Assembly: GCA_947034885.2 (NCBI GenBank)
Contig: OX344751.2
Location: 15,438,001-15,502,000 of the forward strand
Direction of reading: 5' to 3'
From: Thuidium tamariscinum
Lineage: Eukaryota > Streptophyta > Bryopsida > Hypnales > Thuidiaceae
DNA length: 64,000 bases
How positions within the stretch are numbered: the first letter of the stretch is position 1; every line of letters starts with the position of its first letter. Below, piece by piece: positions 16,065-64,000 of this stretch. The notes under the pieces were generated by a model. That model saw only the letters and a list, made by a program, of their open reading frames with translations, made no database searches and was not told the DNA's origin. Position numbers and translations under genes: made by a program.

Positions 16065-16455
16065 TAAAGGAGAAACATCCATTTTCGTCCCTGTACCTAT
16101 TCCAGGTCCCTAGAGTATCACTAAATCTATCCATGAGCGTCCATTAAAGTGTCTGACAAGTGTTTAACTCTAATTTTTTGATGTAGTTTGAAGACACATG
16201 TATAATTTTCATTCACTGACAACTGATTTCAGCAAAGTTCGGTTTAGGGTACACCTATAGGACGGTTCTAGTGGTCTAGGGAGCCAAGTCTTTGAAAATT
16301 TGTAGAAATTACATATTGATTCCGAAAAATTTAATTTTTTTTTTGAATATTCATGATTTCCTCTCGCTAATACTAGAAAAATATCAGTTTTAGAAAAATA
16401 TGCCTCCAACCATGCTAAATTCCTTATTCGGACGGTTTTGGGTGTTTCCACTGTA
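16065..16455 (+). mobile_element. TA-flanked miniature element, family D copy 2
   Basis: TA+AAGGAGAAACATCCATTTTCG at the left and GGACGGTTTTGGGTGTTTCCACTG+TA at the right. The interior matches copy 1 (words GGTCTAGGGAGCCAA, TTTGAAAATTTGTAGAAATT and TTCCTTATTCGGACGG). The 104-codon minus-strand frame overlapping it is non-coding repeat. Confidence 0.65.
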
Positions 16456-19400: not shown

Positions 19401-21960
19401 TCATGCCACGGTCAGGTAGACATGTGCACTGGAACTGTCAGGTAGTGTTGAGAGGTATATATCTTACAATCTGTTCTTACAATCAAGAGGAACAAACTTG
19501 ATGCAAACACTGTATACGTGGTTTCTAGGGTTTAGGATTTTAGGGTTTAGAGTTTAGGAACCAGTTCTAAACTGGAATCTTGGACTAGTGCAGTGATTGA
19601 ATTGAAACTGGAATGATCTTGGATTAGAGAAGTTTAGAAACGTTTGTTCATTGCACAAGAGAACTGCGAACTTAGAGCTCGTCCTCAAGCTCGGTCCATC
19701 CTAGCTTCAGAGATATTACGGCCGGGGTGACCAAAATAGAGTGGGCTTGCCAAGGTAAGATGGCGAGTTTGTGATAGCAAGCGTGCGAATCCTTTCACCA
19801 ATCAATGAGACTGAACAATTGTTTTAATTTATTTCGGTCTGCCGAGTGAGCACATGACTACGAATATCCCACCTAATATATATTTCCACCTAATATATAA
19901 TATGGGTATGATGAAGGGTCACCAAAAATGATCGAGATGCATGGGGCAAGCTAAATAAGTGTGGTCAGTTAGTCGCTTAGAAAGTTAGAATGTACTGCTG
20001 GTTTCGTAGTATGGAGATCACTGCAAATTATTCTTAGGTTTACAAGTCAATTGCAAGCTGTACGTCAATTTCATTACCTTGTAAACTCCACCCGAGTTGA
20101 ATCAGTTGATCTCAAATCTTGCGTGTTTGGGCCGTCATGCAAGCCGGACTGGTAGTTAAAGAGACCAGGCCAGCTTGTTGCGTCACTATTTGTAAGATCT
20201 TAGTGTACCGGTCGGCATTGGCTCGATTCTCCAGTTCGAGCTGCATGACCTAATTGACATTTGTAAGAAAAGAATGGTATGCATGCCCTCAGTTTGAACA
20301 ATATCGATCAGCCATGCATACCCTTTGAAGTCTCAGCTCAAATAACTTCAGATTGAAGGAACCCGTGGCCAGATATTTTCAACCGAATCAGCTTCCGAAC
20401 TGGCATGGACGGCCTGTCCGTTTTGAGCTCAGTCTCAGCTTCAAGTCCTGAAGACGGTCCCAATGTGCTTGTGATGGACGCTTTCTCAACCTAACGGATG
20501 AGGATCGGAGAAGCGGTGAGTACGTACGTATGCTTAATATTCTCAAGTCCGGACATGCTGCAAGCTGAAACTGACCTACAAGTGGAGGACCCACAAGTGA
20601 AACCAACCTAGTGTTACGCCAATCAGAAGTGGAGACCGTAACAACTGAATCAGTCCAAGTCCAGCAGTTGGTTACTAGCTTGGTATAGTCTCGATTAATT
20701 GTCAATCTCGAACTCTGTGTGTAATGTTGCGTCATCATTAATATCGTTGGAAGTAAATAACTATATAATGATCACCACTTGCAGGAGTCAAGGACCCGGC
20801 TCGCTCCAGGTTTGACCCCAGCCGGCTTCCGACACATATTGATGCATCACACACCGTGGATAAGATCGATACAAGAAACTTTTTTTAAGAAGTACTCAAA
20901 TAAGACAGTTCGATTATTTGCCCGATGAAGCTAGCTCCGGGATGCACACACCAAGTGTCTGACTGACAGTCACAACAAGTGCGGTGCCCAAAGCTTGTTG
21001 ATATTCACAGCTTTATGACGAACCATCGGCCATGGACACAAGGAAACTTCGGATGACTTGCGTGCTCTGCCAAAAGCCTGGAGAGGAGGCTTTCGTTATT
21101 AATTCGAGTGGGGCTGGAAAGTGTAAACTAAAGTGTTCACCAATATCTACAGTCTATCGAATAAAAAGGTTACTTATTCCTCGCAACCATCTTTGCTGGA
21201 AATGAATGGACCATGGAGGTAGCCAATTGAGGCATAAATCATGTTTTGCTGTCTGTGGAGGGGAGTCCAGCCGCCTCTAAATTTGGGAGGCTCCAAGGCT
21301 TTTGGTCGGCTTAAAGATAGGTACTTAAAGCATTCTACATGACGCGCCTAGCTCCTGCACCGGCTATTGCATTGTCGCTGAGGCCTGGGCGGGGAAGTCC
21401 AGAGTCCCACTGAATTTTACGAATTTATATCCAATATACCTCTCCAGGCAATTTGGTTCTTCTGTGTCAAGCTTATGAATGCAATCCTTATGCAATCCTG
21501 AACTGCAGAGTCCTTCCAACTTATCGAAGTGCGGACCTGTCGGTTGGTCTGTCTGATGTCTGAAGTTTAGCGCACACATTTCCTGTTTTGGGGGTTTGTT
21601 GGGGAACTGCCTGTGGGGAACTTATAAATTATTGAATGGATTTATTGAAAGAAAATTAGTACCGGTCTGAGGAACAGACTGACGACCTTTTCCAGTTCCT
21701 GGCTCCTGATCGATCCCACCAGCAGGATTTGGCTGAATCGATTATAGAATTGGTTTTTATTTGAAGCGAAACCAAAACAATTGTGTGCTGAGGGGCAAGT
21801 CGGAGACAAGGCAGGGTTCCGGTCTTGATTCGTAGGTACACCACTAGTGTTGAGCAGAGTATGATATTGATCTGCAAGCAGTGACATTTTGGTTGGTTGA
21901 TTGGCGAATAATCACCCAAATCTCACTTGATTCTCGAGCTGGCTCTCGTCACTGACAGTA
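16456..21960. other. Base-balanced island without a recognisable gene
   Basis: Composition changes sharply at about 16.48 kb and back at about 21.96 kb. The island resembles the gene region at 36-49 kb: frequent GCTAGCTAGC and GATCGATC words and scattered GTAAG/TGCAG splice-like words. All open frames are under 120 codons, overlap on both strands and show no motif. Telomere-like words (TTTAGGATTTTAGGGTTTAG) lie at about 19530-19558. It could be a long non-coding transcript, a regulatory region, a large-intron portion of a gene, or a decayed gene. I see nothing that decides. Confidence 0.4.
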
Positions 21961-29214: not shown

Positions 29215-29600
29215 ATCGTCATGTGTAAGATAGAAGTGCAACTATTCAAGTATTCATCCTTAATATCACTACAAGAGAAAGGGGTATTTGAACTTTGAAG
29301 TATAAATATAGAGATAAGACTTAAATAAGTACTGACCTTTTCATGAGATTTTTAGTAAGAAAGACGTTTTTTTTTAGTAAATTTTACTAGAAAGACACCT
29401 ATTTCTTACTTAAAATCTCCTAGAAAGGTCATTAGTTAAAATTTTATCTCTAGGACTATACTTAAAACACTCCTTTCTCTTGTAGTGTATTTTGAATGAA
29501 AAGGGAGATCTTCTATAGTGCTTTAACTTCTAATGAGTCCTTTTGGATTTTTTTTTTAACCATTGATTCCTACAATATTAAAATAAATGATTTCATAGTT
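29215..29600. repeat. Dispersed repeat I, interrupted by a CACTA miniature element
   Basis: Phrases before (GTGCAACTATTCAAGTATTCATCC) and after (AAAGGGAGATCTTCTATAGTG, CTTCTAATGAG) the insertion match the copies at 1965-2060 and 2380-2480. Confidence 0.55.
29267..29487. mobile_element. CACTA-type miniature element, 221 bp, TSD TAT
   Basis: The ends CACTACAAGAGAAAGG and CCTTTCTCTTGTAGTG are near-perfect inverted repeats. TAT (29264-29266 and 29488-29490) is duplicated on both sides. CACTA ends plus a 3-bp duplication are the signature of the CACTA (En/Spm) superfamily. The interior is largely self-complementary and non-coding. Confidence 0.85.
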
Positions 29601-30861: not shown

Positions 30862-31017
30862 CACTACAGGAAAATGGGGGTACAAATGACTTGTCCATAA
30901 TGACTACATTGATAACAATGATTGCAAAATGACTACAAAATGATTGTTTTGCAATCATTGTTGTCACTGCAGTCATTGTAGACAAGTCATTCATATAGAC
31001 CCCATTTTCTTGTAGTG
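30862..31017. mobile_element. CACTA-type hairpin miniature element, 156 bp, TSD TGT
   Basis: It starts CACTACAGGAAAATGGGG and ends CCCCATTTTCTTGTAGTG, flanked by TGT at 30859-30861 and 31018-31020. Both arms are complementary almost to the centre (AAATGACTTGTC / GACAAGTCATT; GCAAAATGA / TGATTGTTTTGC), so a transcript would fold into one long hairpin. Confidence 0.9.
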
Positions 31018-38416: not shown

Positions 38417-41400
38417 ATGGTGAGTGGAGGCGGGGAGAGTCCTGCAATTGTGAAGCCTCGCAATGACGACAGGGAATACAAGAGGGTGCTTCTTTCGAAC
38501 GGTCTCCAGGTTCTCCTCGTCAGTGACCCAGACACAGACAAGGTAAATTAGCCAGTTCGGAGTACTACTAGTCTGTAAAGGCCGGCATTCACTTCTAATT
38601 TCTCATCTCTCTCTGCGAGCTCCTGTTTCATTCTCTGATTGCTTTCTTTCAGGCTGTAGAGCTAATAAAACAGAATCGGACAAGCCCGAAACGTAGTGCC
38701 GGTAGCGGACGTTTCGGGGCTGTCTAAGTGAGAGAGGTTGTGTCGGTGAATTAGATGGCGCCTTAATTAGTTCAAACATCTTTCAATTTAATCTCTCCGC
38801 ATGCAGAACGTGTCTAAAAATGCGCTTCAATTTAACTCCCGTCTCACTGAAAACTTATATAATCTGAGTACTAGGAGATTATTGAACTACTGGACTCACA
38901 GTTGAAAGGAGATTTGTGTCGAAGGGTCTGATTTCTGCATTTCTGCGGTGTTAATTATGCTGAGGCTTGTGCACCCAGAATCACCACCTGAAACGTGCGT
39001 GAAGACTGCATTGCTTTCATTTCAAGTGGCGATTCTAGGTGCACATACACAGGAGAAAATATATCATGTTCTGTTGCTATTTCGACAAGGAATCCACCCA
39101 AGTTGTTCACTAATGACGGCCTGTCTGAGTTGATTGTGGCTCCCTCAATTGCAGGCAGCTGCAGCGATGGATGTTCATGTGGGATCATTCAGTGACCCAG
39201 ACGGTTTACAGGGCTTGGCTCACTTCCTAGGTAACAATCAATAGGACTGCTTGCCAACGACTCTCGTCCCTCTACAAACAAGCCAAATTGGTTGATTGAT
39301 TGATTGATTGGTTACTTTATTTAAATTCCGAGTGACCTTCCTGTTGATGAATATATCAAATCACCAGGATACTTAATATATTATACAGATCTCACTGTTT
39401 GGATACGAGCAGCCAGATGCAGATTTTTTTCCACTGCTAGCAGATCCGTGCAGCAGTCACTTATAAATTATTTATTAGCTCCGAGTCCCTTTCTCACTTA
39501 GGTAAATCATTTTGAGGACTTACAGTCTGCTCTACATAATCTCCGCACAGGGAGATGATCTCTGGTTCCCAATCAAAGAAAATCTGCGCCACTGATTTGT
39601 GCAGTTTGAGGCTTTTCCGTGGTCCCCAGCTTCTGTTCCAAGTGCATAATCATCTGGGAAATTTTTTATATTCCTTTAAGAGAAACAAGGATAATATATT
39701 TCTTTGTGCTCTGCGAGTCTGGGTTCCAGATACGAGTCTGTGTCGTAGTGTCAACCTCCGGAAAGAGGCCTCTAGAAGGGTAGCACAAATAGTTTTCTCT
39801 GCTCTAATACCCTAAACTGAGCAATGTTTGTAGCAGCGTTTGAACGTTGAAAACAAAAAGGATAACTTCATAATTGGCATTCAACTTTGCTACGTGAACA
39901 ACGTTTTTGAACATATTTGCTGAAAATTGTTGCGTGCTTATTGAAGTGCATTCAAAATTTTACGCTAACAATGATTCCCACGTTGCTAAAACGTTGCTAA
40001 AGCCTCCAAATTCTAGTAGTGGATTAATGTAGTGGACAAATTATCGAGATTGTTATATCCCACTGTGCATTTAATTCCGTTTTCTTTTGAATGCAGAGCA
40101 TATGCTGTTTTATGCAAGCGAGAAGTACCCCAACGAGGGGATGTACAAAAAGTTTCTCAGCGAGGTATTATTTTATGGCAATTGTATATTCTTCATCCTA
40201 CATGAAGTATTGGAGTCCAGAGATTGTCTAACACGTACATCTGGTGTTTGGATATCCATACCGTGAGTTACAACCAACGAAATGTCATTGACTGATCAAA
40301 TATGAAGCCTTTTAATTTGCTACAGAGAAGGGAGAGTAACTCTGCGCTTCAATTTCGTTCAATTGGAGCCTAAATTCGCCTACTGAGAATAACACTTTCA
40401 GGACGTTAAGCCTGACTCTGAAACAAATTCAGTGTAGTTTGTTTCGCATTATACTAATGAATCGTAAATTTTGTTAAAGATAATCATCGGCGTGATTCTG
40501 GCCCAAAGACTAGTGAAAATAAGGACATTGATGCTCACTTCTACTAACCACACCACATCGACACAGATAGCGAGTGAGTGCTGGTCTACTTGATAAACAT
40601 GGACATCATGTAACTAATAAAGTTAGACAGCCAGGGAAGTAATATTAAAAGAGACTTAGAGTTTTAATTAGTACTACCCATCCGGAGAGTTTTCTGTTAA
40701 GATTTCACGAAATTTTGACTCTTGACTCCATGTGGGTGGCTTCAGCACGGAGGCTATGCAAATGCTTACACCGGACATGAGCACACCAATTTTCATTTTG
40801 ATGTCAATGCCAGTCATTTGGAGGAAGCGTTGGACAGGTCCGTCTCGATTTCGAGTTCCGGCCTCTGTGAATTGGTTCTGGCCATTAATTTTTGGCATAA
40901 TCCCGAAGTCTTGAAATGCGTACTTATGGAAGCGTTGTCCAACGTTCACTGGTTTAATTTTCACTTCAGCTGAACTTTCAGATAAAAAAAATTTGTGTGT
41001 GTAGGTTCGCGCAGTTCTTTATTTCCCCATTGCTATCCCAGGAAGCGACCTCCAGGGAGATTCATGCTGTCGACTCTGGTATGTTGTAACTTGCCGTGTT
41101 AATCCAATCCAAGCGCTGGCTTGCTCTTCCTACACGGCTTCAATGAAAAGTTCGGTAGTTGAGAAAACAAATATAAATTTCAGCCCCCATAAGTTTCGGG
41201 CAAGTTGTAAGAGCAGTAAATTCGACAGACTCACCTGGCTATCAGTACTGTACTGATGCGTAGGCCTATGGATATTGATTCTTTTCAGAGAACAGTAAGA
41301 ACCTCTTATCTGATTCCTGGCGGCTTTGTCAGGTTAGTACAAGCTCATCCATTGCTGTACAAACTCATACTCTTTACAAGTGTGCAATGAACCGGAAAAA

Positions 41401-44400
41401 TTTATGTCAAAAAACGAACTTACAGTCAAGCACTAATAATTTCTCTATTGAAGCCAGTCAGCCAGCCGATCAATAACCATTTTTCTAGCTATGGAAATGA
41501 TTCAAAAACGTTTTTCTTGTCAAGTTACAGTCCAAGCTTGTCTGCAATTGATTCGCTTATTACATCAGGAGCCTGAACTGAGTGCCATCTGATCTGAATT
41601 TGCAGCTACAGAAGCATTTCAGCGCCAAAGATCATCCTTATCACAAGTACGAAACAGGTAACTTAATTGTGAAATCTTCAACTGTTGACAGAAACTGTCA
41701 GGCGTTCTAAACGTTTGTAATCCAAGCGGCAACTTAACCCTGGAAATTCCGAATGAGTCAAAATAGCTTACGAGTTTCACTCCAAATGCATGATTTCGTG
41801 GGTCACAGGTAACAAGATTACACTCCACACAAGACCAAATGCAAGAGGCATAGATGTCCGGGAAGAATTGCTCCGCTTCTACGACAAATATTACTCAGCT
41901 GGGCTGATGGCTCTCACCGTTTATGGCAAAGGTAAGACAGGTCTTAAGCTTTCAGCTATCAATGAGGGAAAAAAACATTCAGTTATTCAGACGCTAGCCA
42001 CCCATTTGTCAGCAGTTCACGTACCACAAGCTCAAAGCCTGAGTCAACAAGGTACATGTTTTGGTTGCTGAGTGCAATTTATAATGCAATTTAACCTTTA
42101 GTTCTTCAATCAGGAACTTAAGATGAATATGGAAGTCCTGAAAAAGACTTGTGGATCGACAAATGAGTCATTTCTATGGAATTTCTTCTGCTGTAATGGA
42201 AGTTCATCACCCAATGTTAATCTTAATGTGAATTAATGAGTGATCCCTATTTGATTGATCCCTATGTGATCCGTATTTTGCAGAGTCCGTAAGTAAGCTT
42301 GAGGCTCTGGTACGGGAAAAATTCTCTAGTCTGAAAAACAAGAGAATTGAAGTACCCAGATTTCCGAGTCAACCATGTTTTCCAGAGCACTTGAAGGTGA
42401 GAAAGTCTGGACATGCACCATGCTCCTGCACTTGGCTTGCTACGCTGAGTTGTCTTATATTTAGTGCGTGTGGCGTGGCACTACTTTACCAGCGTCGCAC
42501 TATTTTTAAGTTAGTGCACGCTGAAATATTACTGTATTGAACTAATTTTTATTTTTTTTCCCTTAAATCTTAGTTACTGTATAGACACCAATTTTACAGG
42601 GATTTAACAAGAATTCTACGCCCTCAATGTACCTCGTGCAAGTTTTTAAGGTTAAGTAGATGAGGTCTTATGTGAGCCTGACTGTTGGTTGTTGCGAAGG
42701 AACCGTGTGCGTGCTAGCCAGAAGAAAAGAAAAAAATTAACTATCCATTCAGTGTTTGATTGGTTAAGAGTTTCTAATTTCAGATCATGGTGAAGAGCGT
42801 CCCAGTGCAAGACCAAAATGTGTTGGCGGTCACGTGGCCAGTTACGTCAAGTATTCGGAAATACAAGAAGGGCGCATCACCATATGTCCAGCACTTTCTG
42901 GAGAGTGAAGCTGAAGGATCCCTCATTGCCCTCCTTAAAAGATTGGGTAATTTGCCATAAAAAAACTTTCGCCCACGAAGCCTCTGCTTCTGGTTCTATC
43001 AATCCATTTCAGTCTTCAGTCTAATGGAATTGATGTATGGTTGTTTTAAAAACTAAAAACCAAGAAATGGGTAATCATGTCAGATGTACTAGACATTCAC
43101 CATGTCCAACATCCAAGACATACTGTTCAATGTCTGGAGGGGAAAACCCTAAGCCTGCAATGTGCCAGAAGCGTGTGTTTCAATAGCACTATTTTGCTCT
43201 CTGTAATTCCAAGTTGCTGCTAAATTTGGCTTTTGATCTGTATGCCATGGCTGCAACGCAGGCTGGGCCAACAGTCTCTCAGCAAGTGAAGATGGGACTC
43301 TGGATTTTGCTTTCTTCAGCATCTACATGGAGCTTACCAATGCAGGTCAAGGTATGTGGTGATCGGCCATTCTTCAATTTACATCAGCTCGCATAATTTG
43401 ACCAAGCGCTAAGCTCGCTCCAGAGCTCATTCAGAATCGGCTGGCGTTCTGCAGAACATGTGGCAGAAGTCCTCGACTTTTTGTTTCAGTACATTCGGCT
43501 ATTACAAGTGCGAGGAGTGGTGGCCTGGATTTTCGAAGAGGTATCCCGTGAATTTTCCACATAACTCTCGTCGATGTTTACATTGCTTCTTTTCTTCAGC
43601 GGTTTGCGAGAATCTCGATCCAGGCTTTTTCTTTGCTCTAATTCCTGGCTATGTCGCTTTCTTCAGAAACGGGCCATGAATGCGACGTGGTTCCATTTTA
43701 AAGATAAGACAGATCCCATGGAGTATGTTATTGGACTCTCAGACTCCATGCAGGTAACGAAACTTAGCCCTTGAAGTTCAGTTGAGCCCACATTGGTAAA
43801 GTTCTCATTTAAAATTCATTACCTCTTGGTGCAGTAGGGTTCTTGACTAGTGTCTATTGATACAGAACTATCCAGTTCAAGACTGGTTGGCTACGGACGC
43901 ATTGTTTTCAGATTTCGACATGGAGACAATCTCGGCACTTGCAAATCAGTTGCAGCCTCAGCAAGTCAGGTCTGACACCAGATCAACATCAATAAATAAT
44001 TAGAATTGTTTCCAAAAGAATTTTTACCTTAGTGCTGAATACCTTCCTTTTTCTGCTAGACCCTAAACCCTAAATCATGGTGTAGATGATTATGAATATG
44101 TAACTATATTGGGTATGTTTTTAACAACATCCTTTCAGGGTAACAGAATTTTCAGCTCTTCCAAGACATACGAGATGGAAGCAACAGATGCTGAGCCGTG
44201 GTACACTACACCGTACAGCGTTGACAGGATTGATGATCTGTCTGTCAAGGTGTGTGTGTACCCCCGCTTAAGTTAAGGACCAAAAAATCTCATGTTTTTT
44301 TTGCAGTTTTGAGTAGATTATATGGAAACTTCACTTTGTCCAATTTGATTTAGTTTCTGACTAAAACATTCAATTTTCTTCACTGATTCTGAAAAAATAT

Positions 44401-47400
44401 TTGGTCCTATCAGACTTAAACCTTTCACGATATGATCAATCGCATTGGTCATCATTCTGAAAACCATGAATCCTTGTCTGGGTGTCAGCTTTATGAGTTA
44501 ATGCGATGTAATAAAGATCACGCCATAACTCGGATCTGCTAGTGATTGTGAACAATTTGTTGATTTTATTGTTGTCTTTCAGCGATGGGCGGAGACGGCT
44601 ATAGATGGGAGACTATTCTTGCCTTCACCCAATCTGTTTCTGCCCTCTGATTTCAGCATTAAAAATCCAGAACTAGAGGTGAGAATATTTCTTTGATGGA
44701 CTCCTGTTTTAGGGTTTTAGAGTTTTAGGGTTAAAGGTTTAGATTGTACTGTTTGCGTCAAGTTAACCATTTGAACAATGTGTAGCAGATGTGTGATTTT
44801 TGGATACAAGATCCAGAGCTGTTGAATGAAATGGCTATTACTATGAATGTGTGGATTTCTTAATATGCAATTTCAAACAAGGAGGTTAATTGCAGACCAC
44901 TCGAATTGCAAGTGACAGTAGATAGCCCCGTTTGCACTTAAAGATGAGTGCCAATAGACAGCCAAGTCATGCACACATGCGGGCAACTTGCTAATTGAAG
45001 CCCAACCAATTGTTGATTGGAAGAGTGGAGCTGCTGTTGTTAACTTAACAGGTTGGTCAGTCAATAGGAGATGGGATCAGGTCCCTTCCGTTTTTTATCA
45101 GTATCCTCTCCCTTATTGTATATTTGAATGAGGCCTAGGTCTTCAATCAAAAGTCCTAATTCAACAGGTCTGACTCTTTTTTTCTATATATGTGTTACTA
45201 AGTTTTCTCAACTGGACAGAAAGGGCATCCAGTCATGATACGGAAGACGAGTCTGTCGAAGCTATGGTACAAGAATGGAATGGAAATCAAAACTCCCAAG
45301 GCTTACGTGTACTTAAGTTTTAATTGCCCTGAATCAAATAACTCGCCGGAGGCCACGATTCTCACTTACATCTTCACCTGTCTCCTGGCTGATGAAACGA
45401 CAGAGTATGGTACGTGGAATACAGCTGCATGCATTCCTTCTCTTACATAATGTTCAATCGCATTCGCTTTCACATCAATTCAAGGCTTGGTTGCTGTATA
45501 TACATTTTGGTTGATAGTGTCAAGCCTTGGTTACTTTGCAGCTTATTATACTAGTCAAGCTGGGCTGTACTACACTGTTTCCGCCAGTAAAGATGGACTG
45601 GAGGTACATCCATCCCCTCGCTGATGACTTTGTTGTAACAGAAGCGCTAGATGTGCCTAAATGCATGAATTGTGTGTGGAAATCAAATCAGAAGTGTGCT
45701 GCATATTCAAAGCGAGTCTCTCATTCTGAATCCTCCAACTTCTGCAGTGTTTTTGTTCACCAGAGTGTCTGCGTGATGTTCAGGTTGTGGTTGAGGGCTA
45801 TCATGACAAGTTGATGTCTTTGACGGAGAAGATTGTGGAGAAAATTGTGAATTTTCAAATGAAGGAGGATCGGTTCGCTTTCGTGAAAGTAAGATCCAGT
45901 CAATAATTTGCTTCTACGAACGTGTTTCGTTTTTAGTACATCATGTGAATTTTGAAAAACGAATAGTGCGCACATGAAGCATTATAAATTCTTATCAAGT
46001 GAGATTTGCAAATCACCGAAGAGTACATACTAGAAAAGCAAGGAGAAGGAGAGACCATTTCGCCCTCCAACGTTTATTCCCTTGGGAGAAGCAGTGCCCA
46101 CGAATGAATGTTTGCACAGCAATTAGAACCAGTGGCCTCTTCTGACTTGCTTATTTTGTGCTTATAAATTTCTGGTTTGTAATGACTTGCCAACAGGAAA
46201 AAGTAGCGAAGGATTACACAAATATGCGATTTATGCAACCGCATGGGCAGGCTCATTACGAAATCAATCACATCCTCTCGCATGGAACATGGCACTTAAC
46301 TGAGTGCTTGGAGGTTCTGCCGTCAATTGACGCCCAGGCTTTCACTGCATTCTTTCCTCGCCTTCTCTCTCGAATGTTTGTTGAGGCTCTCATCGGAGGT
46401 TCATCTCATTTCTCACACAGATAGATGCCACCTGCCCTCAAAGTTTGATAGACAATATTAAAGGCTTTTTGGTGAGGTATTCCCCTGCATGTGTACGGTT
46501 TTAGATTTTAGGTTCTTTTCTTTTAGTTTTTAAGGTTTTATAATTTTAGGTTTTAAGGTTTTAGGATTTAGGGTCTAATCTGCTTTTGAGCTTCTATTGA
46601 TTCTTCTTTCATGTTGTAGTCTTCAGTGCGTGACTGTGTTTTTGTGGCTGAATTTTGGGTGGTGCCTTCTCATGAATTCCTCTGTATTTAATCTGCAGGT
46701 AATATCACAAAAAGTGAGGCCGTCTCCCTCTTGGAACATGTTGAAGACACTCTCTCAGTGGGGTCACTGGTCCACATTCGAGCTCCCTCTTTGTCACAAT
46801 TGCCTGAGAGAAGGATCATGTGCCTGGAGGCTGGCTCAGAATGGTTATATCCCACTGCTGGATTCAACCCAGATGATGAGAATTCCGCCGTTGGCATCTT
46901 TTTTCAGGTTCATAATCAAAGCCTCCTTAACCGTCACACGTTAGTGGATAAAATATGATGAAACAAATTAACCGGATTTTTATTGACAATTAAATGGCAA
47001 TTCTATTTTAACAAATAAAGGCACATAAATTGCTCTCTTCTGGCAATTCCGCCTTTGCACTGATGATGAAATCCTGCAGGCTGAAAGGGACTGCTCAAGG
47101 TCAAACGTGTTGCTTGAGCTTTTTACTTCGACGGCCAAAGAGCAACATTTCAACCAACTTCGAACCGTGGAGCAACTTGGCTACTTCGTTGACCTTTATG
47201 AGACGTAAATTTTTTATTGCCTGGAAGTTTCAATTTGAAAATGGCTGCCCATTTGTTCTTATGTGCGCTACGGTCTTCTTATATGTAGACACTAGGCTGG
47301 ACTAACTAGAAGATCGCAGTAATGGCATGGTGTTGTAAAGAACAAATTTCAGGTTTGGCTTGTTTGATAAATATTGCATTATTAACTCAGCAAGTCAAGG

Positions 47401-51206: not shown

Positions 51207-51957
51207 TTAACCCCTAAAGTCTTGAACAACGTTTTTTGAGATTATAAATTTTTTAGGCAGCTCACTACGGATGAAGTTTTTATTTTTTTTCTTTGAAATT
51301 TTAACACAATGTGTGTCCAAGGAGTAGCTTTAAGGCCCAACAATTTTCATAACTTTTGACTTCATGGTAAAAAAGTTATGGCAAGATATGTTGTTTTCTT
51401 GACTCGGAAGGCAGCCCGGGCAGCTGAAAGAACTTCTTCAGCTGCAAAAACTTTTAAGAAAAATGAAATTTCAAATTGATTTTGTAGGTTGATACCAACA
51501 TGCGAAGCTTCAAATGTTTCCATTTGAATTAATGAGTCAAAAGTTATGAGGTTTTTTAGTTTGCGGGTAGGTATGGAGTCAAATGACTTCATACCTACCT
51601 GCAAACTAAAAAACCTCATAACTTTTGACTCATTACTTCAAATGGAAACATTTGAAGCTTCGCATGTTGGTATCAACCTACAAAATCAATTTGAAATTTC
51701 ATTTTTCTTAAAAGTATTTTCAGCTGAAGAAGTTCTTTCAGCTACCTAGGCTGCCCGCCGAGTGAAGAAAACAACATATCTTGCTATAACTTTTAACTGT
51801 GAAGTCAAAAGTTATAAAAACTGTTGGGCCTTAAAGCTACTCCTTGGGAACACATTGTATCAAAATTTCAAAGAAAAGAAATAAAAACTCCATCTGTAGT
51901 GAGCTGCCCAAAAAATTTATAATCTCAAAAAAAGTTGTTCAAGGCTTTAGGGGTTAA
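51207..51957. mobile_element. TTAA element A5: head-to-head fold-back, near-perfect 375-bp arms
   Basis: TTAA (51207-51210)+CCCCTAAAG at the left and GGCTTTAGGGG+TTAA (51954-51957) at the right. Both halves are the right half of a family A element, in opposite orientation, meeting at GGAGTCAAATGACTTC near 51582. Arm pairs include GCAGCTCACTACGGATG / CATCTGTAGTGAGCTGC and GAAGCTTCAAATGTTTCC / GGAAACATTTGAAGCTTC. A transcript would be one long double-stranded hairpin. The 67- and 85-codon frames on opposite strands encode almost the same peptide because of the symmetry and are not genes. Confidence 0.88.
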
Positions 51958-52063
51958 AGAATAGAATCTTTGGCCCTTTAGTAGGTGACTTTTTATTATA
52001 TTAGATAAATATTAATTAAATGTGAGTGTACTCAAACCATTAATTTATCTTTAAACCCCTTAA

Positions 52064-52084
52064 CCCATTAACGACCGTGGTCGA
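52064..52084 (+). repeat. Left terminal inverted repeat of the piggyBac element
   Basis: CCCATTAACGACCGTGGTCG; pairs with 57837-57855 with small gaps. CGACC-GT-GGTCG forms a subterminal palindrome. It is bordered outside by TTAA. Confidence 0.85.
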
Positions 52085-52326
52085 TTTGGGGGGCGGGCAA
52101 CCCATTTTCTGTGAAAACGACATATGTGGAAATAAGTTATTGTAGGGACCTTTTTATTGAAATTTGACCGTACAGATGTAATGCGCGCATGGTGCTTTCA
52201 CTGACAGTATCAATTTTTCCTAATAATAAGGCTCAATATGTGCATTTTATAATAGATCTTTGATTTCGTATGAGCTGAGGTGTTCTCCATACAGTAGGAA
52301 TACGTGATTGGGGAGTATTTCTTTCC

Positions 52327-52793
52327 ATGAAATTCTTTTTCGTGGACAGGTTGACACGTCTCTCATCCTTCAATGACATGATGAAAGATATGAAGTACGC
52401 ATTCTCACGGGAACGCCAATCTGGAGTTCCCCAACTGAACACTTGGACACCACATGTAAGATATCTGGACATGGCAGGGCGTGGAATTACTTGGCCAGAG
52501 ATCCCAAGGAAGTTACGAGGAATTGTGTAAAGGTGCTCAGTCCCGAAGTGCGCTCAGTCCCGATCGCTGGCTGGGTGCGCCAGGACCCCAACTCGCAGGT
52601 GCTTTCGGCTCGCTGTGGCGCGCGCTGCCACTCCCGTTCTTTGCAAGTGCTGGATTTCCCTCCCATTCATACCCTACGGAACCCTGAGAATAATTCCCCA
52701 ATTATCTCTGTGAACAGGACACTGGCGGTCCAGATTGGAGGAAGCTGTTCGACCGGTTCCAGTGCAAGAGGGGGTTCAGCTGAAGTGTGGTAG
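52327..52793 (+). other. Unassigned plus-strand open frames inside the piggyBac element
   Basis: Two overlapping plus-strand frames, 52327-52530 (67 codons, starts MKFFFVDRLTRL) and 52443-52793 (116 codons, ends GGSAEVW), run opposite to the transposase in its downstream third. GTAAGA at 52457 could be a splice donor. The segment has balanced, gene-like composition. It may be a second gene of the element, part of an intron-containing host gene picked up by the transposon, or 3' untranslated sequence. I recognise no domain. Confidence 0.25.
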
Positions 52794-53956
52794 TTGTATA
52801 ACTACTCCCAACAAAGTAGCAAAAAGGAAAACAGATTCAAACAGTCACAGACACACCACAACCACAACGCTCAAATAAATGGCTCATCCGTTGCGATTAG
52901 AGCGAAGAATGCAGACCATATAACCGAAATTCAAATGGGTAGCAAAAAAGAGAGCAGTTTAGGTAGGTTTAGGATTACAACCGAATAGAGACCACAACCT
53001 GAATAGGACATTCATGCTCCCCAAACAGAGTGACAACTTCGCCTGCTTTACAGACAATCAACGGCGTGCACATTCTTGTCCAACTAATGAAGACACATAA
53101 ACGTGGGCTAATCTCAATACATCACCAACATTACAAAACAAAACATGGGCGGCCATGAGGACAAAAGCCCATAATGAAAATGCCATCACGAAAATGTGAA
53201 TACCGAGTCTCTCACAGTAATGTGGAACCAAAAAACTTCATGACGGCAGCTTGCTTCCCCGTCCCTTGCTTCTTCGTCCCTGCATGCACATAGCCCGAGT
53301 AAAGGTAAGCAACCTCAACAAGTTCCCATCAACTACAGTCAGGTCATTCAAACATGCCACGATCCCTGCAATACCAACGTTGAGCTGACAAAGCATGGCT
53401 TCCTCTCACTGTGACCAATCGATCTCCTGCATCAGACGTTCCTTGGCTGGCCTGACCTCACATTACACTTTCAATATACTCATGATAGCCTACAGAGAGC
53501 AAACTGAATTGATCAATTGAATTCATGAAAAGGCTGTGTGGGTTACCAAACCTGTAAACTAGCTAGTCCTAACAAATGAATATGACAAAATCAACGATGG
53601 TTGCATAATGAAAGCCAAGTAAATTTGCATGCCAGGAATACAAGCACCTCTGAACTTGCCGTATATACACTCCACTACCTACAAACTTCACATAAAGAAA
53701 AACGGTAGCCATGGTGCAGCAAACATTTCAAAGTCATACACATCTCAGGCAAAAAATTTAGTGTCAAAGTAATTTACCTAACAACAAGTATTGCCTACGA
53801 TGCCAATGTGAAAGCAAACAACAAAATTTGTGAATGGAATGGCACATGATTCACCGCATGCAAGCTTCTCAATCCCAAGGGTCGCTTACTGCACCTCACT
53901 CCAAACGGCAAATGTGGAAGGAGCACTCACCACATTGAAAGAAGCCAATTTCAACC
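52794..53956. other. Downstream non-coding part of the piggyBac element
   Basis: It lies between the unassigned frames and the transposase stop codon. No motif is seen; it is probably transposase 3' untranslated region plus subterminal DNA. Confidence 0.4.
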
Positions 53957-56900
53957 CTACACACGTCGGCTATGAGTGTGAAAGAAGTCGAAGCAGTCAG
54001 TTGTGCACAGTCGCGTCCCCTTGCACGTTGGGCATACAAAGAACGTTCGTTTCTTGCAGATGTGGCAGACTCTACGAAGGTTTGTCTTCCGAGGGAAATG
54101 AACTCCGCCATCTTCACGTAATGGCAACGAAGTTTTACGGTTTGCCATCTGGCGGCGGGTGGCATTCTCAACCTTGTAAGGACGTCCCATAAGAGAGAAA
54201 GCAACACGGAGTTGGAACTCCTTGTGCGTAAGCGGTTTCTCTCCAAGTCGCTTGGATGTTTCCTTATGAATTGTAAAGGCGTTTGCAATTGATGAGTCCA
54301 AGCAAAAAAAGAACACTCGGTGCCACCACTTCTTCGTAGCAATCTGTGTGCTATAGTAGGATCGATTTTGGTCACCAATGTCGACTCCACCCATTTTCTG
54401 TGAGTATAGGATCTGAATTGGAGACGTCTGCACTTGCACCACCCTTTGGCCTGAAATACGATTTGTGACAACTCCACCAGGCACCATGGGATCTGCTGCA
54501 GTGGCCAAAAAATAAACTCCTTTGGTATCTTGCCAGTGGATTGCTGCCATTTTCTGGTCCCGGTGTACTCGAATGTGGAGCGTACCTCTGGGTTGGTCAC
54601 GAGAGATGTTCAAGCTTGTTGGAAAACCTTTGCGTTGTTTCCTTGCAGTCCCAACAGCATACAAACCACGATTGAGCAAATCATCAAACAAATAAGGGGA
54701 GGTGAAGTAGTTGTCCATGGTTACAGTGTACCATTGTCCTTCCAGCCCCTTCGTCAGGCGACTCACGACCCCACCTGCCATGCCAATGTGTGCTGTAGCC
54801 GCTTCAAAATCACCTTGTTTGTTGTCTTTCCCAACATAAACCTCCAACTTGTAAACATAACTAGTAACTGAGCACGCCAATGCCCAAATTTTTATTCCAT
54901 GAGTGATGGGCTTTGCTGGAAGGTACTGTTTGAAGGAGCAGAAGCGCCCATTGTAGGCCACCATGCATTCATCAACTGTAACATAGGGTGACAAGTTCCA
55001 ATACTGTTGAAAACGCGCCTCCACATGCTCCAAAATCCATCTGCACTTGCCAATAGGGTCATAGAAAGGACTTTTCTTGTCTGTAACAAAGTCATGTCTT
55101 GATGTTATGTGAAGGCATCTCAAAATGTACTCAAAGCGCCATCGGGACATGGTGGTAGCCACATCTGCACAGAATAGAGCACCACTGCCACGACACCAAT
55201 AGTCTCGAATGCATGGCTGGTCTCGTACGCCCATGAGACAACAAATCCCTGTGAATTGCCTAAATTCTTCTAAAGTGATGGATTGAGCAACAGACTGTCC
55301 ACCTTTTCGCCTTCCAGTTTTGGGATCAATGAAATCTGCATAAGAATTGCTCTCTACAACTACTTTGCGTTGCAAAACGTTGTCCCAGAAAAGGAGAAAA
55401 TATTGTACAGGCTCTAACAGAACATTGGCCGGAAGATGCTCACTTGCCCCAGGCGAATCGCCCTGGAAAGGTTGTCGGGGCTGTAGCGACCACGTACAGG
55501 CGTGCCAATTTGCCTCGCAGTACTTGTGTTCTAAATCATCCGTCTCAAGCTGCGGTCCTGTTGTATAAATTCCTAATTCACCGAGTACTGCGATGGGATG
55601 ATCCGCTTGCGCATCCATTGAGCTTGCCCCACTGGAGTAACCATCGTCGTTGGTCCCAAGGTCTGAAAGTGCAGGGTCCCAATCATGGGCGGAATCACTG
55701 TCAGAGAGCTCCCATCCTGCCAAACCATGTGTCTCCACAGTCGAAGGAGAATTGCGTTCTGGAGCTGCGGTGGGTGAATCCACACCTCCTTCAAGTGGAT
55801 AGCCTCCCTGCTCTTCTACCTCGGTGCAGACAGCGCGCGACAAGGTTTGAATGCCGAGGTGAGCTCCAAAGTCAACCCGCAGCATGGCATTCCCCTCGTT
55901 GCCTTCTTCCACGTCGAGCACGATCCCTGTCGCATGCGGACATGGGATCGGCAAGATTTCTCCTCCCCAGAGAAGGTCGCGTAAATACACTTGCACTCGC
56001 CACGGGAAACAATCACGCGGTCTTCTAGTTGGAGGGACGTACGTAGTGGAGTCCATGAGCTGTGGCTCCGGAGACTGTTCCTTGCCTGAATCGCAATCTC
56101 TGACATCGTTGCTACGATTGTTGCTGCGACATCCTCGGCCTCGGCCCCGACCCCGACCCCGGCTTGGAGGACGGCCTCGTTTGCAGCTTCTCTCGCAAGT
56201 TGCCGCCTGATCGTCTCTCAATGCCAATGTGTTGTCGTTGCATGCAGGTGGTGTCGGAGATGGATTGGAGCTATCCCCGTTGCATGCGGACACGGGATTA
56301 GCAAGAGGGGTGCAGTGCGCCCGAGTTGAGTGCCGCTTTCTCCGTGGCGAAGATGTCGAGGGTGTACAGATGGGCCCCGCCATGTCTCCACCGTCGGGAA
56401 TGCCTTGCAGATCGCCTTGTTTCCCGTCATTCCTAATGGTCTCCACTTTTTTCCGAATGTACTTTCGCTTGCTCCGCACAGGCATCGCACTCTCGATTTG
56501 GGAAGGGAGGTCGTTCTTTTTGTTGCCAACGCCTCGTTGCCTCGCACCTTCATGTACATGCGTTGGTTGAACGTGAGGCTGGAATAATGTAGGTTCTTGT
56601 GGCGTGCCCAACGCCATGGCAATGCACAAGTCGGGCATATCAGCAAGGCTTCTATTGCCATGAGCACAAGGTTGGACACCCACAATGAGGACATCACGGA
56701 AAGACGGACGTCCGCAAGTGGGCATGAAGCTCGCTGGGGAATCCATCTTCAGTACCCTCTTCTCGCCTCGGACCCCAACCGAGCAATTTTGCAGAGTGCC
56801 GGTAAAATAGATATCGTAATTGCGCCCCTGACAAGTTTTGCAAGTCGTTGTAGCCCCTGGCCCCAGCCGGAATTGGATGAGAGACCAAGTACGCCCGATC

Positions 56901-57028
56901 CAGGAAGCCCAAAAGTACTCGCTTCTTCTCGGGGTGAAATTGGTGGCTCCTTGCCCAATTGACCAAGATTGCGGCTGTTGTAGCAAATTCCTGTGGTGGA
57001 GGCGGAGGTGGAGGCCAAACATATCCAT
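53957..57028 (-). CDS. piggyBac-family transposase (DDD, DDE_Tnp_1_7 type), 1023 aa
   Basis: It catalyses cut-and-paste transposition into TTAA. The open frame extends upstream to 57079 but starts there with TTG right after a stop; the first in-frame ATG is at 57028, used here. Residues 1-530 are a long, mostly disordered extension carrying a CxxC pair (C63, C66) and an AT-hook-like KRGRPPSRGRGRGRG tract near 283-297. The transposase domain starts near 533. Catalytic aspartates are D686 (in VDECM), D772 (in MDNYF) and D883 (in GGVDIGD), with spacing similar to the insect enzyme. The tail has the Cys-rich zinc domain (C988, C991, C999, C1002, C1008, C1012, H1017, H1019), needed for end binding in this family. 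Typical piggyBac transposases are about 600 aa, so this one is unusually long. No stop or frameshift was found, so it may be active. The start is uncertain. Confidence 0.88.
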   Translation of the reverse strand: MDMFGLHLRLHHRNLLQQPQSWSIGQGATNFTPRRSEYFWASWIGRTWSLIQFRLGPGATTTCKTCQGRNYDIYFTGTLQNCSVGVRGEKRVLKMDSPASFMPTCGRPSFRDVLIVGVQPCAHGNRSLADMPDLCIAMALGTPQEPTLFQPHVQPTHVHEGARQRGVGNKKNDLPSQIESAMPVRSKRKYIRKKVETIRNDGKQGDLQGIPDGGDMAGPICTPSTSSPRRKRHSTRAHCTPLANPVSACNGDSSNPSPTPPACNDNTLALRDDQAATCERSCKRGRPPSRGRGRGRGRGCRSNNRSNDVRDCDSGKEQSPEPQLMDSTTYVPPTRRPRDCFPWRVQVYLRDLLWGGEILPIPCPHATGIVLDVEEGNEGNAMLRVDFGAHLGIQTLSRAVCTEVEEQGGYPLEGGVDSPTAAPERNSPSTVETHGLAGWELSDSDSAHDWDPALSDLGTNDDGYSSGASSMDAQADHPIAVLGELGIYTTGPQLETDDLEHKYCEANWHACTWSLQPRQPFQGDSPGASEHLPANVLLEPVQYFLLFWDNVLQRKVVVESNSYADFIDPKTGRRKGGQSVAQSITLEEFRQFTGICCLMGVRDQPCIRDYWCRGSGALFCADVATTMSRWRFEYILRCLHITSRHDFVTDKKSPFYDPIGKCRWILEHVEARFQQYWNLSPYVTVDECMVAYNGRFCSFKQYLPAKPITHGIKIWALACSVTSYVYKLEVYVGKDNKQGDFEAATAHIGMAGGVVSRLTKGLEGQWYTVTMDNYFTSPYLFDDLLNRGLYAVGTARKQRKGFPTSLNISRDQPRGTLHIRVHRDQKMAAIHWQDTKGVYFLATAADPMVPGGVVTNRISGQRVVQVQTSPIQILYSQKMGGVDIGDQNRSYYSTQIATKKWWHRVFFFCLDSSIANAFTIHKETSKRLGEKPLTHKEFQLRVAFSLMGRPYKVENATRRQMANRKTSLPLREDGGVHFPRKTNLRRVCHICKKRTFFVCPTCKGTRLCTTDCFDFFHTHSRRV

Positions 57029-57065
57029 CTCGACGTCCTCTGGATCGCTTTCCTCCGCCGGCCAT
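56694..57065 (-). other. Alternative-frame ORF overlapping the transposase 5' end
   Basis: This is an ATG-initiated 123-codon frame (starts MAGGGKRSRGRRD, then a run of eight prolines) offset by one base from the transposase frame. Its composition is protein-like (for example LLGFLDRAYLVSHPIPAG). It begins 37 bp upstream of the transposase's first ATG. It may be the true first exon, spliced into the main frame, or a separate small product. No splice pair could be fixed. Confidence 0.3.
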
Positions 57066-57079
57066 ACTCCCGTACGCAA

Positions 57080-57820
57080 TCAAAACGGCCTTTGATTCAC
57101 CCTAAGCTTCACACTTGCAGCAATGAACACCCCTATTGTTCTCACCTGATGGCGGGTGTCTAACCCTACAGTTTGTGGTGGACGGAGAGAGCTGCCACAG
57201 CTTCGATTGTTGCAGCTGCGGTCTTGAGTGCTGCAATTTGAAGTTCCCTCGCAAAGTGAGCTCCCTGTAGTGCTTGGAACATGCCCTCGGATCCCAAACC
57301 GCCCCTCTCATTACCAAAAGCCTCCATTTCAGCACCCTAATCTCTTGAACCTCCCTCGTCACTGCGTGCGTAGGTCAACAATCGATTCTTCAACTTCGAT
57401 TGCGCCTTGGATTCGTGAAGCTGCATCGTGGAGCATCGAAAGCAAAACGGTGAAGGACCTTGGATCCGTCACGGGCCTTTGCTTCCTGCTCAAGTTGCGT
57501 CCAGCTTGGCAAGCCACCAACGGCAACTTCATCGTTCCCATACCTTGTTCCAAGTTCCCAAAGGATCATGCATACGTCATAAAAGCCTTGTCAGCGCGTA
57601 CACTGTCCCCGTCTTTAGCATTTATGGCCATCTTTAGCCATTTATTTCCGTATGTACATCTCTAGTTTTGGTGGTTTATTCAATGCTATTTCCTCATGAC
57701 AGCATGGATTGCTCTCATATTTGTCCCAGTGCATGCAGAGGCTAATTTCCCACACCCGTTTCCTTTGGGCCTTTCCCCAATTCAAACTAGAATTTTCCCT
57801 ACCCCTCAAAAGAGGCCCAT
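57080..57820 (-). promoter_or_regulatory. Upstream (promoter/5' leader) region of the piggyBac transposase
   Basis: This stretch of the element lies between the transposase frame and its right end and must contain the promoter. Composition is balanced. Frames on both strands (up to 145 codons on the plus strand) show no domain. No confident TATA box was located. Confidence 0.35.
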
Positions 57821-57855
57821 GTCGACCACAAAGTGGTCGACCAGTCCTTAATGGG
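57821..57855 (-). repeat. Right terminal inverted repeat and subterminal palindrome of the piggyBac element
   Basis: GTCGACCAC-AAA-GTGGTCGAC (57821-57841) is a perfect palindrome with a 3-base loop, followed by CAGTCCTTAATGGG at the tip. It is bordered outside by TTAA at 57856-57859. Confidence 0.85.
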
Positions 57856-58796
57856 TTAACCCCTAAAAAGGGTATTGACTATGTTTTCAACAAAAATGCT
57901 CCAAAACTGTCATTTCTAATGCAAGTACAAAATTTCAGAAAAAAACATCTTTGAACATTTGTAACCATAGGATCTTGTATTACACTAGTTTAAAGAGATG
58001 TGGAAAAAATTTCAAAAATTTCCACCATGTAGATTGCAAGATATTAGTGTTTGAATTGTCAAAGAACCATTTTTTGACCCTGCGAAAATCTGGGCAGCTC
58101 CACTTCAGTAGCTCACATTTATATGAAAAAATATTCAAAATGTTTGTAACTCTTTGGTTTCATTCTTCAATTCAAGTTGGCTACATGCTTGAAAATTTTC
58201 AAATAATTTGGAGTTGTACAAGATGTAGGAAAAAATAAATAAGTAGAAAGAAGTAGAAAATGATCCAAAATACTAAATTGTTAACTATTTTTTTATGATA
58301 TTGAAAAAATGACAATTCCAATGGTTGTAATTTTGTAATAAACAATATACACCCATTTTTTTTGTTTTTATTCAAAAAAAATTTTAAATTGAGTAAAATA
58401 AATGATTTCAAAGTTTATTTTAGCATAAGTACCCATAAACTACCCACAAACTAAAACTCCTATAACTTTCATCTCATTAATCAAGATGGAATAATTCAAA
58501 GCTTTACAAGTAGATAAAAATCTAAATAAAAAATTTGAAATTTGAAAATTCAAAAAAAGTGATTTTTAAAAAAGTTTTTTAATGCCTAGGCTGCCCGTTG
58601 AGTAGAGAAACTACATATCATACAATAACTTTTTCACTATGTAGTCAAAAGTTATGAAAATTGTTGGGCCTTAAAGCTACTCCTTGGATAGATGTTCTAT
58701 GAAAATTTCAAAGAAAAAAAATAAAAACTCCATTCGTAGTGAGCTACCCAAAATTGCTATGTTGACAAGAATACAATTTGGTCCTTTAGGGGTTAA
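57856..58796 (+). mobile_element. TTAA miniature element A6, abutting the piggyBac element
   Basis: TTAA (57856-57859)+CCCCTAAAAAGG at the left; CCTTTAGGGG (ends 58792)+TTAA (58793-58796) at the right. The 933-bp interior matches A2 and A4 throughout. Its left TTAA is also the right target copy of the full-length piggyBac element, so one inserted exactly at the end of the other. The 95-codon frame at 57951-58238 is repeat sequence. Confidence 0.88.
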
Positions 58797-62269: not shown

Positions 62270-64000
62270 AGAGTTTGCTAGATTTATGTAGTTCATTCAA
62301 ACAATGTAGTCCTAGTGAGGTTCTATATTGGGCAAACTTAATTTTGCCAAATGGCTTTGTAAGTGCATCTGTTGGCTGACTAGTTGTAGGAATATATTTC
62401 ACTTGGATTTCCCCCCCTAAAATTCTTTCTCTCATGAAATGGTAATGGATTTCAATGTGTTTTGAGTATGCATGAAAGATAGGATTCTAAAAGAGTTTTA
62501 ATGCACTTTAGTTGTCGCAGTGAAGTACAATGCTTGAATTTGTGTTGGTAGAAGGAATGTTAATTGTAGTAGGGTTGGGTGTAGGTGGTTGCAATTCTTT
62601 GAGCAGTCAATGGAACCATACTGCTTCTTATAATACATCACTTAATGCTTTGTACTCTAATTCAAGTGAAGACCTAGATTTTGTTGGTTGTTGTTTGCTT
62701 TTTCAACTAAATGGACCATCAGCGAGTGTGAAAATATAGGCACCTTCTGATTGGCGAGTTTCTGGATATGATCTGAGCTTGTCAGCATCAGCATAGCTTG
62801 AAATTTGGATTGCAGCATCAAACCAATATAAAATACCAAGATCTAATGTACCTTGTAAGTATCTAAATACCTGTTTGGCATCTTTGAGGTGTGATTATTA
62901 GGGTTGGGCCATGTAGCTACTAAGGTGGCTGACAATATATACAATATTTGGATGTATCACAATGAAAAAGATTAATTTGCAATAGTGAGTTTGGTCGACA
63001 AGTTTGGATTTCATATCGGTTAGCAATACTTGATTGTCAAGTAAAAGTGTGTTGGTAGGTTGGCAGTTTGCCATTCCAAAATATTTAAGTATCGAAGTTG
63101 TGTAATCACATTGGTGTAGGAAGATGCCTGATAGGGTGTGCTCAAACAAATTTTCAAGGTAACATTTGATTTGTTCTAGATCTTTCATGTCGAATTCAAT
63201 ATGTAGAAATTTCTTGAACTAGGATACAAATCAGTTGGAGTAGCTAGTGATGAAGAGATCATCAACGTAGAATATAAGAATAATAATTTTACCTTTGGAA
63301 TGCATGTAATACATGTTACCATCGAATTTGTTGTGCTTTAATCCAATTCGTTTAAGAGCAACATCAATTCTATCATACCATGTACCTAGACTTTGCTTAA
63401 TATATAGAGTAATTTGTTGAGGTGATATATGAAATGTTCTTGTCCACAAACATGAAATCCGGGAGGAGGGTAGATCATGCTGGTCTAATGTAGTCCGATC
63501 TATGCCAAAGACGGGTGTTGTACTAGAAGGTTGGGGAAGCAAGTATAAACTACCGGATGTGTTAGACAGGGATGCAGGTAAAGGAAGTTGTCTATTAATT
63601 AGTAAAGTATCTAACAAGGGCCCTATGGTTTTGGAATTGGGAAGTCCTAGGTTATGTTCATCAAAGCAAATGTCTCGACTCACTAGTATTTTGCAAATTG
63701 ACAAGTCATAGCAGTGATAAGCCTTACTATGTTCATCATAGCCTAATAGTATCGTGGAAACGGCTTTTGGATTAAATTTTTGACATTTATTGTCTAGGAT
63801 ATGGAAATAGGTAACACATCCTATAGTATATAGATGACTTATATGAGGTGTAATACCTATAAATGTCTCCTTAGGAGTTTTGAGCTAGCTTGAGAGTTTT
63901 TTTTGTAGGAGACCACTTTTGAAGGTAGCTTATTGTTGTTGCTATTTCATTCCAAAGTAATTTGGGAATTTCCATCTCTGTGACAATGCTATATATTCCT
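62270..64000 (-). pseudogene. Decayed Ty1-copia polyprotein (integrase C-terminal part, reverse transcriptase, RNase H)
   Basis: Read on the minus strand from the window edge: the end of the integrase region (KLLWNE near 63950, then a GCV.YFHI and LLGYDEHSKAYHCYD block at about 63830-63700, the typical copia join leading to VSRDICFDE), reverse transcriptase with the catalytic FYVDDLF (about 63245-63265), the thumb-region YFGM..C.PTNTLL block (about 63050-63080), then RNase H (YLQGTLDLGILYW near 62850; SYADAD; SWKSKQQ with an in-frame stop just before; SLELEYKALSD) and the C-terminal IPTTSQPTDALTKPFG at about 62340-62390. Several stops and frame changes break it, so it is non-functional. The 5' half lies beyond the window. 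Confidence 0.85.

Follow-up and report, generated by a model that had tools for sequence, protein, structure and literature searches.

A probable autonomous piggyBac transposon with two conserved coding blocks from the nuclear genome of a plant, most likely a moss

Organization of the element and its ends

The window, a 64,000-nucleotide stretch of contig OX344751.2 (GenBank assembly GCA_947034885.2), contains at positions 52060-57859 an element of the piggyBac superfamily that is bordered by the tetranucleotide TTAA at each edge (52060-52063 and 57856-57859) in the manner of a piggyBac target duplication. Two conserved blocks on the minus strand are predicted to encode a transposase of ~700 amino acids and a 123-residue protein, designated ORF1 (open reading frame 1). 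The element is very probably an autonomous cut-and-paste transposon. It resides in the nuclear genome of a plant, most likely a moss, where it belongs to a large and old population composed of multiple lineages. The right TTAA doubles as the left TTAA of an adjoining miniature inverted-repeat transposable element (MITE).

The left and right ends of the element are alike at 15 of 16 bases and each is built from two repeats. The outer terminal repeats, CCCATTAACGAC on the left (52064-52075, plus strand) and CCCATTAAGGAC on the right (57844-57855, minus strand), match at 11 of 12 positions. The inner sub-terminal repeats follow the pattern GTGGTCGA[T/C][T/A]TGGG and match at 12 of 14 positions: GTGGTCGATTTGGG on the left (52077-52090, plus strand) and GTGGTCGACATGGG on the right (57816-57829, minus strand). 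Spacing between the inner and outer repeats is asymmetric, at 1 bp on the left and 14 bp on the right. The octamer GTGGTCGA occurs three times in the window when both strands are considered, and all three occurrences lie within the two ends. Thus, the terminal repeat starting with CCC and the accompanying sub-terminal repeat that characterize piggyBac elements are both present.

The outer repeat by itself provides modest evidence for the ends, because a pair of TTAA-anchored 12-mers as good as the observed one was attained in 7 of 500 randomisations and because one pair in the real sequence is better (51330/58674, 12 of 12 matches), which arises from inverted MITE copies that flank the element on both sides. 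The inner repeat match of 12 of 14 was attained in 6 of 2,961 random pairs. The ends are supported above all by their recurrence in relatives elsewhere in the 363-Mb assembly that was searched. The end layout is largely retained in relatives that are 50-65% identical in protein, with the 5′ end recognizable in loci L003 and L004 and the 3′ end in L005, L006, L016 and L017; the last four also have sequences similar to the left inner repeat. Between the left inner repeat and the transposase lies a non-coding segment (52091-53956) for which a six-frame Pfam search gave nothing credible. A captured host gene was considered at 52.3-52.5 kb, where the sequence appeared protein-like by eye, and was rejected as the sole Pfam match (E 0.24; 11.8 bits, cut-off 25) was taken as chance.

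The transposase

The minus strand contains an open frame of 1,023 codons that extends without a stop from 57028 to 53957. Residues 540-918 of this long frame match the Pfam family DDE_Tnp_1_7 (PF13843) with an E value of 1.3e-73 and a score of 248.7 bits (cut-off 22.4). A search of the Protein Data Bank (PDB) at E 0.01 returned two distinct sequences, the transposases of Trichoplusia ni piggyBac (6x67; E 4.7e-27) and of piggyBat (9c0f; E 4.8e-25). The catalytic aspartates D686 (54971-54973), D772 (54713-54715) and D883 (54380-54382), as well as D886 (54371-54373), are all located in the proper motifs on the minus strand. Conservation of these residues was counted among 30 genome loci with a match, with only those loci that cover each residue included. 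D686 was kept in 28 of 29 covered loci, D772 in 27 of 28, and D883 and D886 in 28 of 28 each. A C-terminal cysteine-rich motif that extends from C988 to H1017 (53978-54067, minus strand) is predicted from its residues to be the zinc domain typical of the piggyBac superfamily. The motif is covered in 21 of the 30 loci and uncovered in the other nine; C988, C991, C999, C1002, C1008, C1012 and H1017 are each retained in 19-21 of the covered loci. These features, together with the TTAA sequences and matching ends, bear out the description of a complete piggyBac element in a land plant that was given in an earlier note on this DNA. That note also pointed to ~1020 codons without a stop. The frame is real at 1,023 codons, but its first ~320 codons lie outside the conserved coding frame.

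The latter conclusion derives from comparison of codon positions with L003 and L004. The excess of changes at third positions that marks a conserved frame begins at ~56069 when the window copy is compared with L003 and at ~55979 when it is compared with L004. The conserved transposase block accordingly is placed at 53957-56070 on the minus strand, which corresponds to approximately residues 320-1023 of the long frame, and a 1,023-residue protein read directly from the open frame was discarded. Codon-usage scores were too weak to pick the N-terminal frame. Comparison of the window copy with L005 yielded proportions of synonymous and nonsynonymous differences (pS and pN) of 0.784 and 0.165, respectively, indicative of constraint on the relatives.

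ORF1, a second conserved coding block

Between ~57084 and 56700 the changes relative to L003 and L004 concentrate at second codon positions as read in the long frame. The conserved frame in this region is a different one. This frame is ORF1 (56694-57065, minus strand), which opens with ATG at 57065 and closes with TGA at 56694-56696 after 123 codons. The initial ~110 codons of the long frame are an out-of-frame reading of ORF1. Comparison with locus L039 gave a ratio of nonsynonymous to synonymous change (dN/dS) of 0.074 for ORF1. The spacer between the two blocks (56071-56693, minus strand) is open in the long frame and is unconstrained, with no frame favored from 56699 to ~56070 in comparisons with L003 and L004. 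Its length varies from ~0.6 kb in the window copy to ~3.1 kb in L005-L008.

At least 134 ORF1 matches were found in the genome in a search in which 150 of 266 candidates were scored. Transposases of three or more divergent lineages have a copy of ORF1 upstream. Distances between the two blocks on the same strand were assessed for the 46 transposase matches and 45 of the 134 ORF1 matches, using a distant query. Among the 25 best transposase matches, 17 have an ORF1 match no more than 5 kb upstream on the same strand; in four of these 17 the two matches overlap because the long-frame query includes the ORF1 stretch. Conversely, seven ORF1 copies, comprising six that were chosen before the downstream DNA was inspected plus L041/L047, all have a same-strand transposase in the downstream 4 kb.

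ORF1 is considered rather more probably than otherwise to be a separate partner protein. Of 17 lineage-1 sequences, 16 retain the stop that directly follows residue 123, namely the window copy, L002, L003, L004, L039, L040 and L054-L063 (L060 was read by eye), several of which are near-identical or decayed copies and so are not independent. A rival explanation, less favored yet of appreciable probability, is that ORF1 is the first exon of a single spliced transposase to which it contributes an N-terminal domain, with an intron of 0.5-3 kb. The unconstrained spacer of variable length is most easily seen as an intron, and in 13 of the 16 stop-keeping sequences a GT dinucleotide that could serve as splice donor overlaps the stop precisely where ORF1 ends. 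Moreover, L011 has no stop at this point and its frame reads on, and the distant copies L041-L046 similarly continue past the conserved end of ORF1. However, in L055, L060 and L063 the GT is lost but the stop is kept. L055 belongs to L006 as its ORF1, and the L006 transposase match is stop-free. The stop in L059 is TAA instead of TGA. In five lineage-2 copies (L064-L068) the stop falls two codons later and no GT is found there. Retention of the stop despite loss of GT, and lineage-2 stops without GT, favor a separate protein over an exon.

A broader proposal is that the moss elements form a two-protein branch of piggyBac, in which elements of at least three deep lineages each encode, alongside the transposase, a separate conserved protein (ORF1) that resembles no described Pfam domain or solved structure and is required for, or regulates, transposition. 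This proposal is tentative and is given slightly less than even weight. In addition to the splicing evidence above, two observations count against a partner protein. Seven of the 25 best transposase matches have their nearest same-strand ORF1 at a distance of 9-39 kb, and for one no ORF1 lies within 60 kb; three of the 21 lower matches have ORF1 within 5 kb (20 of 46 overall), although this assessment relied on the distant query and on a third of the ORF1 matches. A structure model produced from the single ORF1 sequence is all-helical and of low confidence, with a predicted local distance difference test score (pLDDT) of 51.8. Searches of Pfam and the PDB with ORF1 revealed nothing credible: the best PDB profile match had an E value of 0.31, and two Pfam families each matched a single ORF1 member (E 0.011 and 0.092), neither of which is credible. 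As a guess, ORF1 might bind to DNA or to the transposase. A transposase and a second element-coded protein are specified by PIF/Harbinger and En/Spm (CACTA) elements, and by analogy ORF1 may be a protein of this type. The transposases of those elements are unrelated to that of piggyBac and their target duplications differ.

A run of equal-scoring matches to the ORF1 domain also was observed on contigs C1, C2, C5, C8 and C9, with an open frame of 285 amino acids and 30% identity to ORF1. One member, L041/L047, sits upstream of a transposase. The run probably represents another young, multi-copy piggyBac family.

Copies and lineages in the genome

The transposase has at least 46 matches in the genome, some of which are parts of one element, in a search in which 45 of 758 first-look candidates were scored. 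One copy, L002 on contig C5, is a twin of the window element with 48 differences over 5,800 aligned bases (99.2% identity), 44 of which are transitions. The twin carries an 18-bp insertion in the spacer and one stop in the long frame and, in transposase orientation, is flanked by TGAA on the left and TTAA on the right. The dN/dS ratio between the two copies is 1.43, a value that derives from few changes and is near-neutral. Three further groups of ~99% identity were noted. Loci L005-L008 are 99.1-99.6% identical over ~3.7 kb in five of six pairs, with the sixth pair 97.3% identical over 4.4 kb, and the matched frame is stop-free in three of the four; L029 and L030 are 99.2% identical; and L051 and L052, from another piggyBac lineage and located on different contigs, are 99.3% identical over 3,990 bases. 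Loci L016 and L017 are ~95-97% alike in long pieces. When 24 of the 30 loci were placed in a tree together with two animal references, at least three deep lineages separated within the genome; given its long branches and just two references, this tree has no bearing on origin.

The neighborhood of the element includes further TTAA-flanked sequences. A MITE of 941 bp with ends CCCCTAAA (57856-58796, plus strand) is abutted exactly at its edge by the element. A fold-back TTAA element of 751 bp with arms ~92-93% alike (51207-51957) belongs to the same MITE group. Apart from the two arms of the fold-back, pairwise identities among the MITE copies of the window are 69-85%. The genome contains at least 46 matches to the MITE when 40 of 11,166 candidates were scored; besides the window copy, these include 37 pieces longer than 800 bases that are 86-90% identical and one that is 78% identical. 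Eleven MITE ends in the window share 10 to 14 of 16 bases with the right end of the element; with the end of L026, a divergent copy, they share 11 to 15 of 16. The MITEs look like older, non-autonomous relatives of piggyBac.

The several deep lineages, the three other groups of ~99% identity and the diverged MITEs point to long residence with repeated bursts. Thus, the piggyBac complement of this genome appears to be a large, old population of multiple lineages in which some families moved recently. The comparisons also support a fairly recent movement of the window copy, which is best described as a fairly young insertion of one resident lineage.

Host sequence and origin of the element

The window is located at 15.4 Mb of a contig of 47.4 Mb. 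The genome encodes LEAFY, the DNA-binding part of which matches PDB entry 4bhk with 236.8 bits, followed by 9fwy (175.3) and 2vy1 (173.9); a hand count recorded six differences from 4bhk over ~105 positions. Entries 4bhk and 2vy1 are taken to be the LEAFY proteins of Physcomitrella and Arabidopsis, respectively. The host accordingly is a land plant and most likely a moss, to which the CG and CHG depletion of the flanks and the CACTA MITEs with 3-bp duplications also point as a plant genome. The G+C content is 0.49 in the element and 0.28-0.31 in its flanks. In DNA of the window that is rich in transposable elements, observed/expected ratios are 0.27-0.31 for CG and 0.32-0.55 for CAG/CTG, a depletion that is interpreted as the signature of plant-type methylation at CG and CHG sites (H is A, C or T). 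Transitions at consensus C/G positions in the MITE copies were most frequent in CG (27/99), followed by CHG (22/156) and CHH (138/1,355) contexts. The element itself is little depleted (CG 0.74, CAG/CTG ~0.8).

The earlier note suggested that the intact element had arrived recently, possibly by horizontal transfer. Recent transposition is borne out by the 99.2% identical twin on another contig, but the idea of a lone invader is not, as numerous divergent lineages reside in the genome. Recent horizontal transfer of the element from an animal, fungal or algal donor now is viewed as unlikely. Such an event would fit both the twin and the high CG and CHG content of the element against decayed flanks, each of which fits a young insertion. 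However, the gene-rich segment at 36-50 kb likewise is little depleted (CpG 0.66, CAG 1.10), and so the high CG level in the element is compatible with youth but is no proof of it. Moreover, many divergent relatives are found in the same genome instead of a newcomer that lacks older kin, the piggyBac-type MITEs of the window have diverged as described above, and ORF1 is common to at least three lineages. Horizontal invasion, initially the default reading, was dropped when the genome search revealed these relatives, and is neither needed nor supported as an explanation; the copy count that the note had called for speaks against a lone newcomer. Pattern scans of the viral_contigs and genome_contigs collections and tblastn in phages detected no relatives of the element. 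Horizontal acquisition further in the past may have occurred. An intact plant piggyBac need not be a recent immigrant.

Domestication of a piggyBac element as a host gene is very improbable: the coding frame is intact and is under strong constraint relative to its relatives, but the ends and the TTAA on both sides are also intact, a near-identical copy with the same ends is found elsewhere, and divergence from that copy is near-neutral as judged from few changes. Contamination of the assembly by non-plant DNA has nothing in its favor and is scarcely credible, given that the window lies well inside its contig and shows plant-type CG and CHG depletion, CACTA MITEs and a Copia fragment.

Relation to known systems and proposed mechanism

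The element resembles T. ni piggyBac in the homology of its DDD transposase, in insertion at TTAA and in the C-terminal zinc-type motif. Both also possess a short outer and an inner repeat that are unequally spaced at the two ends, at 3 and 31 bp in T. ni (PMC10140906) and at 1 and 14 bp here. In contrast, the T. ni element is 2.47 kb in length (PMC10140906), whereas the element described here is 5.8 kb and has long non-coding ends. The aligned transposases are 27% identical, and the moss element includes the extra conserved block ORF1. The N-terminal region of the T. ni protein is described as disordered and acidic (PMC7351741). The transposase of piggyBat is 26% identical, and its C-terminal order of cysteine and histidine residues is similar, as judged by eye from a weak second alignment.

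The rarity of piggyBac in land plants that the earlier note assumed has a mixed standing in the literature. The list of five superfamilies then described in plants in a 2008 grapevine paper does not include piggyBac (PMC2528002), which agrees with the assumption. However, a 2015 survey names PiggyBac among the superfamilies present in all studied groups, land plants included (PMC4438587), and a table in the C-fern paper lists 1,230 for PiggyBac (PMC6890710). MITEs of piggyBac type have been reported from angiosperms (PMC10004981). The C-fern and angiosperm reports concern plant hosts and the same superfamily label, but their relevant sections provide counts or non-autonomous elements, whereas a full element, its twin and their lineages are available here. 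No description of a complete moss piggyBac element was found in the open-licence literature that was searched; a Niphotrichum paper that matched contains just the word piggybacking.

In piggyBac transposition, a transposase dimer binds the element ends, the DDD site cuts the DNA, TTAA hairpins form and insertion occurs at TTAA (PMC7351741). By extension, a dimer of the moss transposase would bind both ends through their asymmetric double repeats, its DDD site would cut at TTAA with formation of TTAA hairpins, and the excised element would reinsert at another TTAA, which at this locus is also the edge of a MITE. The position of the element at the TTAA edge of a MITE fits such targeting. The parts known to be needed for transposition are all present, and the element may be active today.

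A moss genome that harbors many lineages and near-identical families would provide a natural plant system for study of the piggyBac superfamily, in which the structure of the ends and the possible partner protein are open to direct testing. piggyBac is a workhorse of genome engineering.

Other features of the window

Exon-like matches to peptidase M16 of the insulin-degrading-enzyme type extend from ~39152 to 47200 on the plus strand, the outermost of which are below Pfam cut-offs; these matches apparently mark a host gene upstream of the element. A fragment of a Copia-type retrotransposon with SH3_retrovirus and RVT_2 matches is located at 62901-63884 on the minus strand. Two CACTA-ended MITEs are found at 29267-29487 and 30862-31017 with 3-bp target duplications of TAT and TGT, respectively. 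The segment at 16201-21100 is richer in G+C, shows little CG depletion and has no Pfam match in six frames; it may be a further young element or else a gene composed of short exons.

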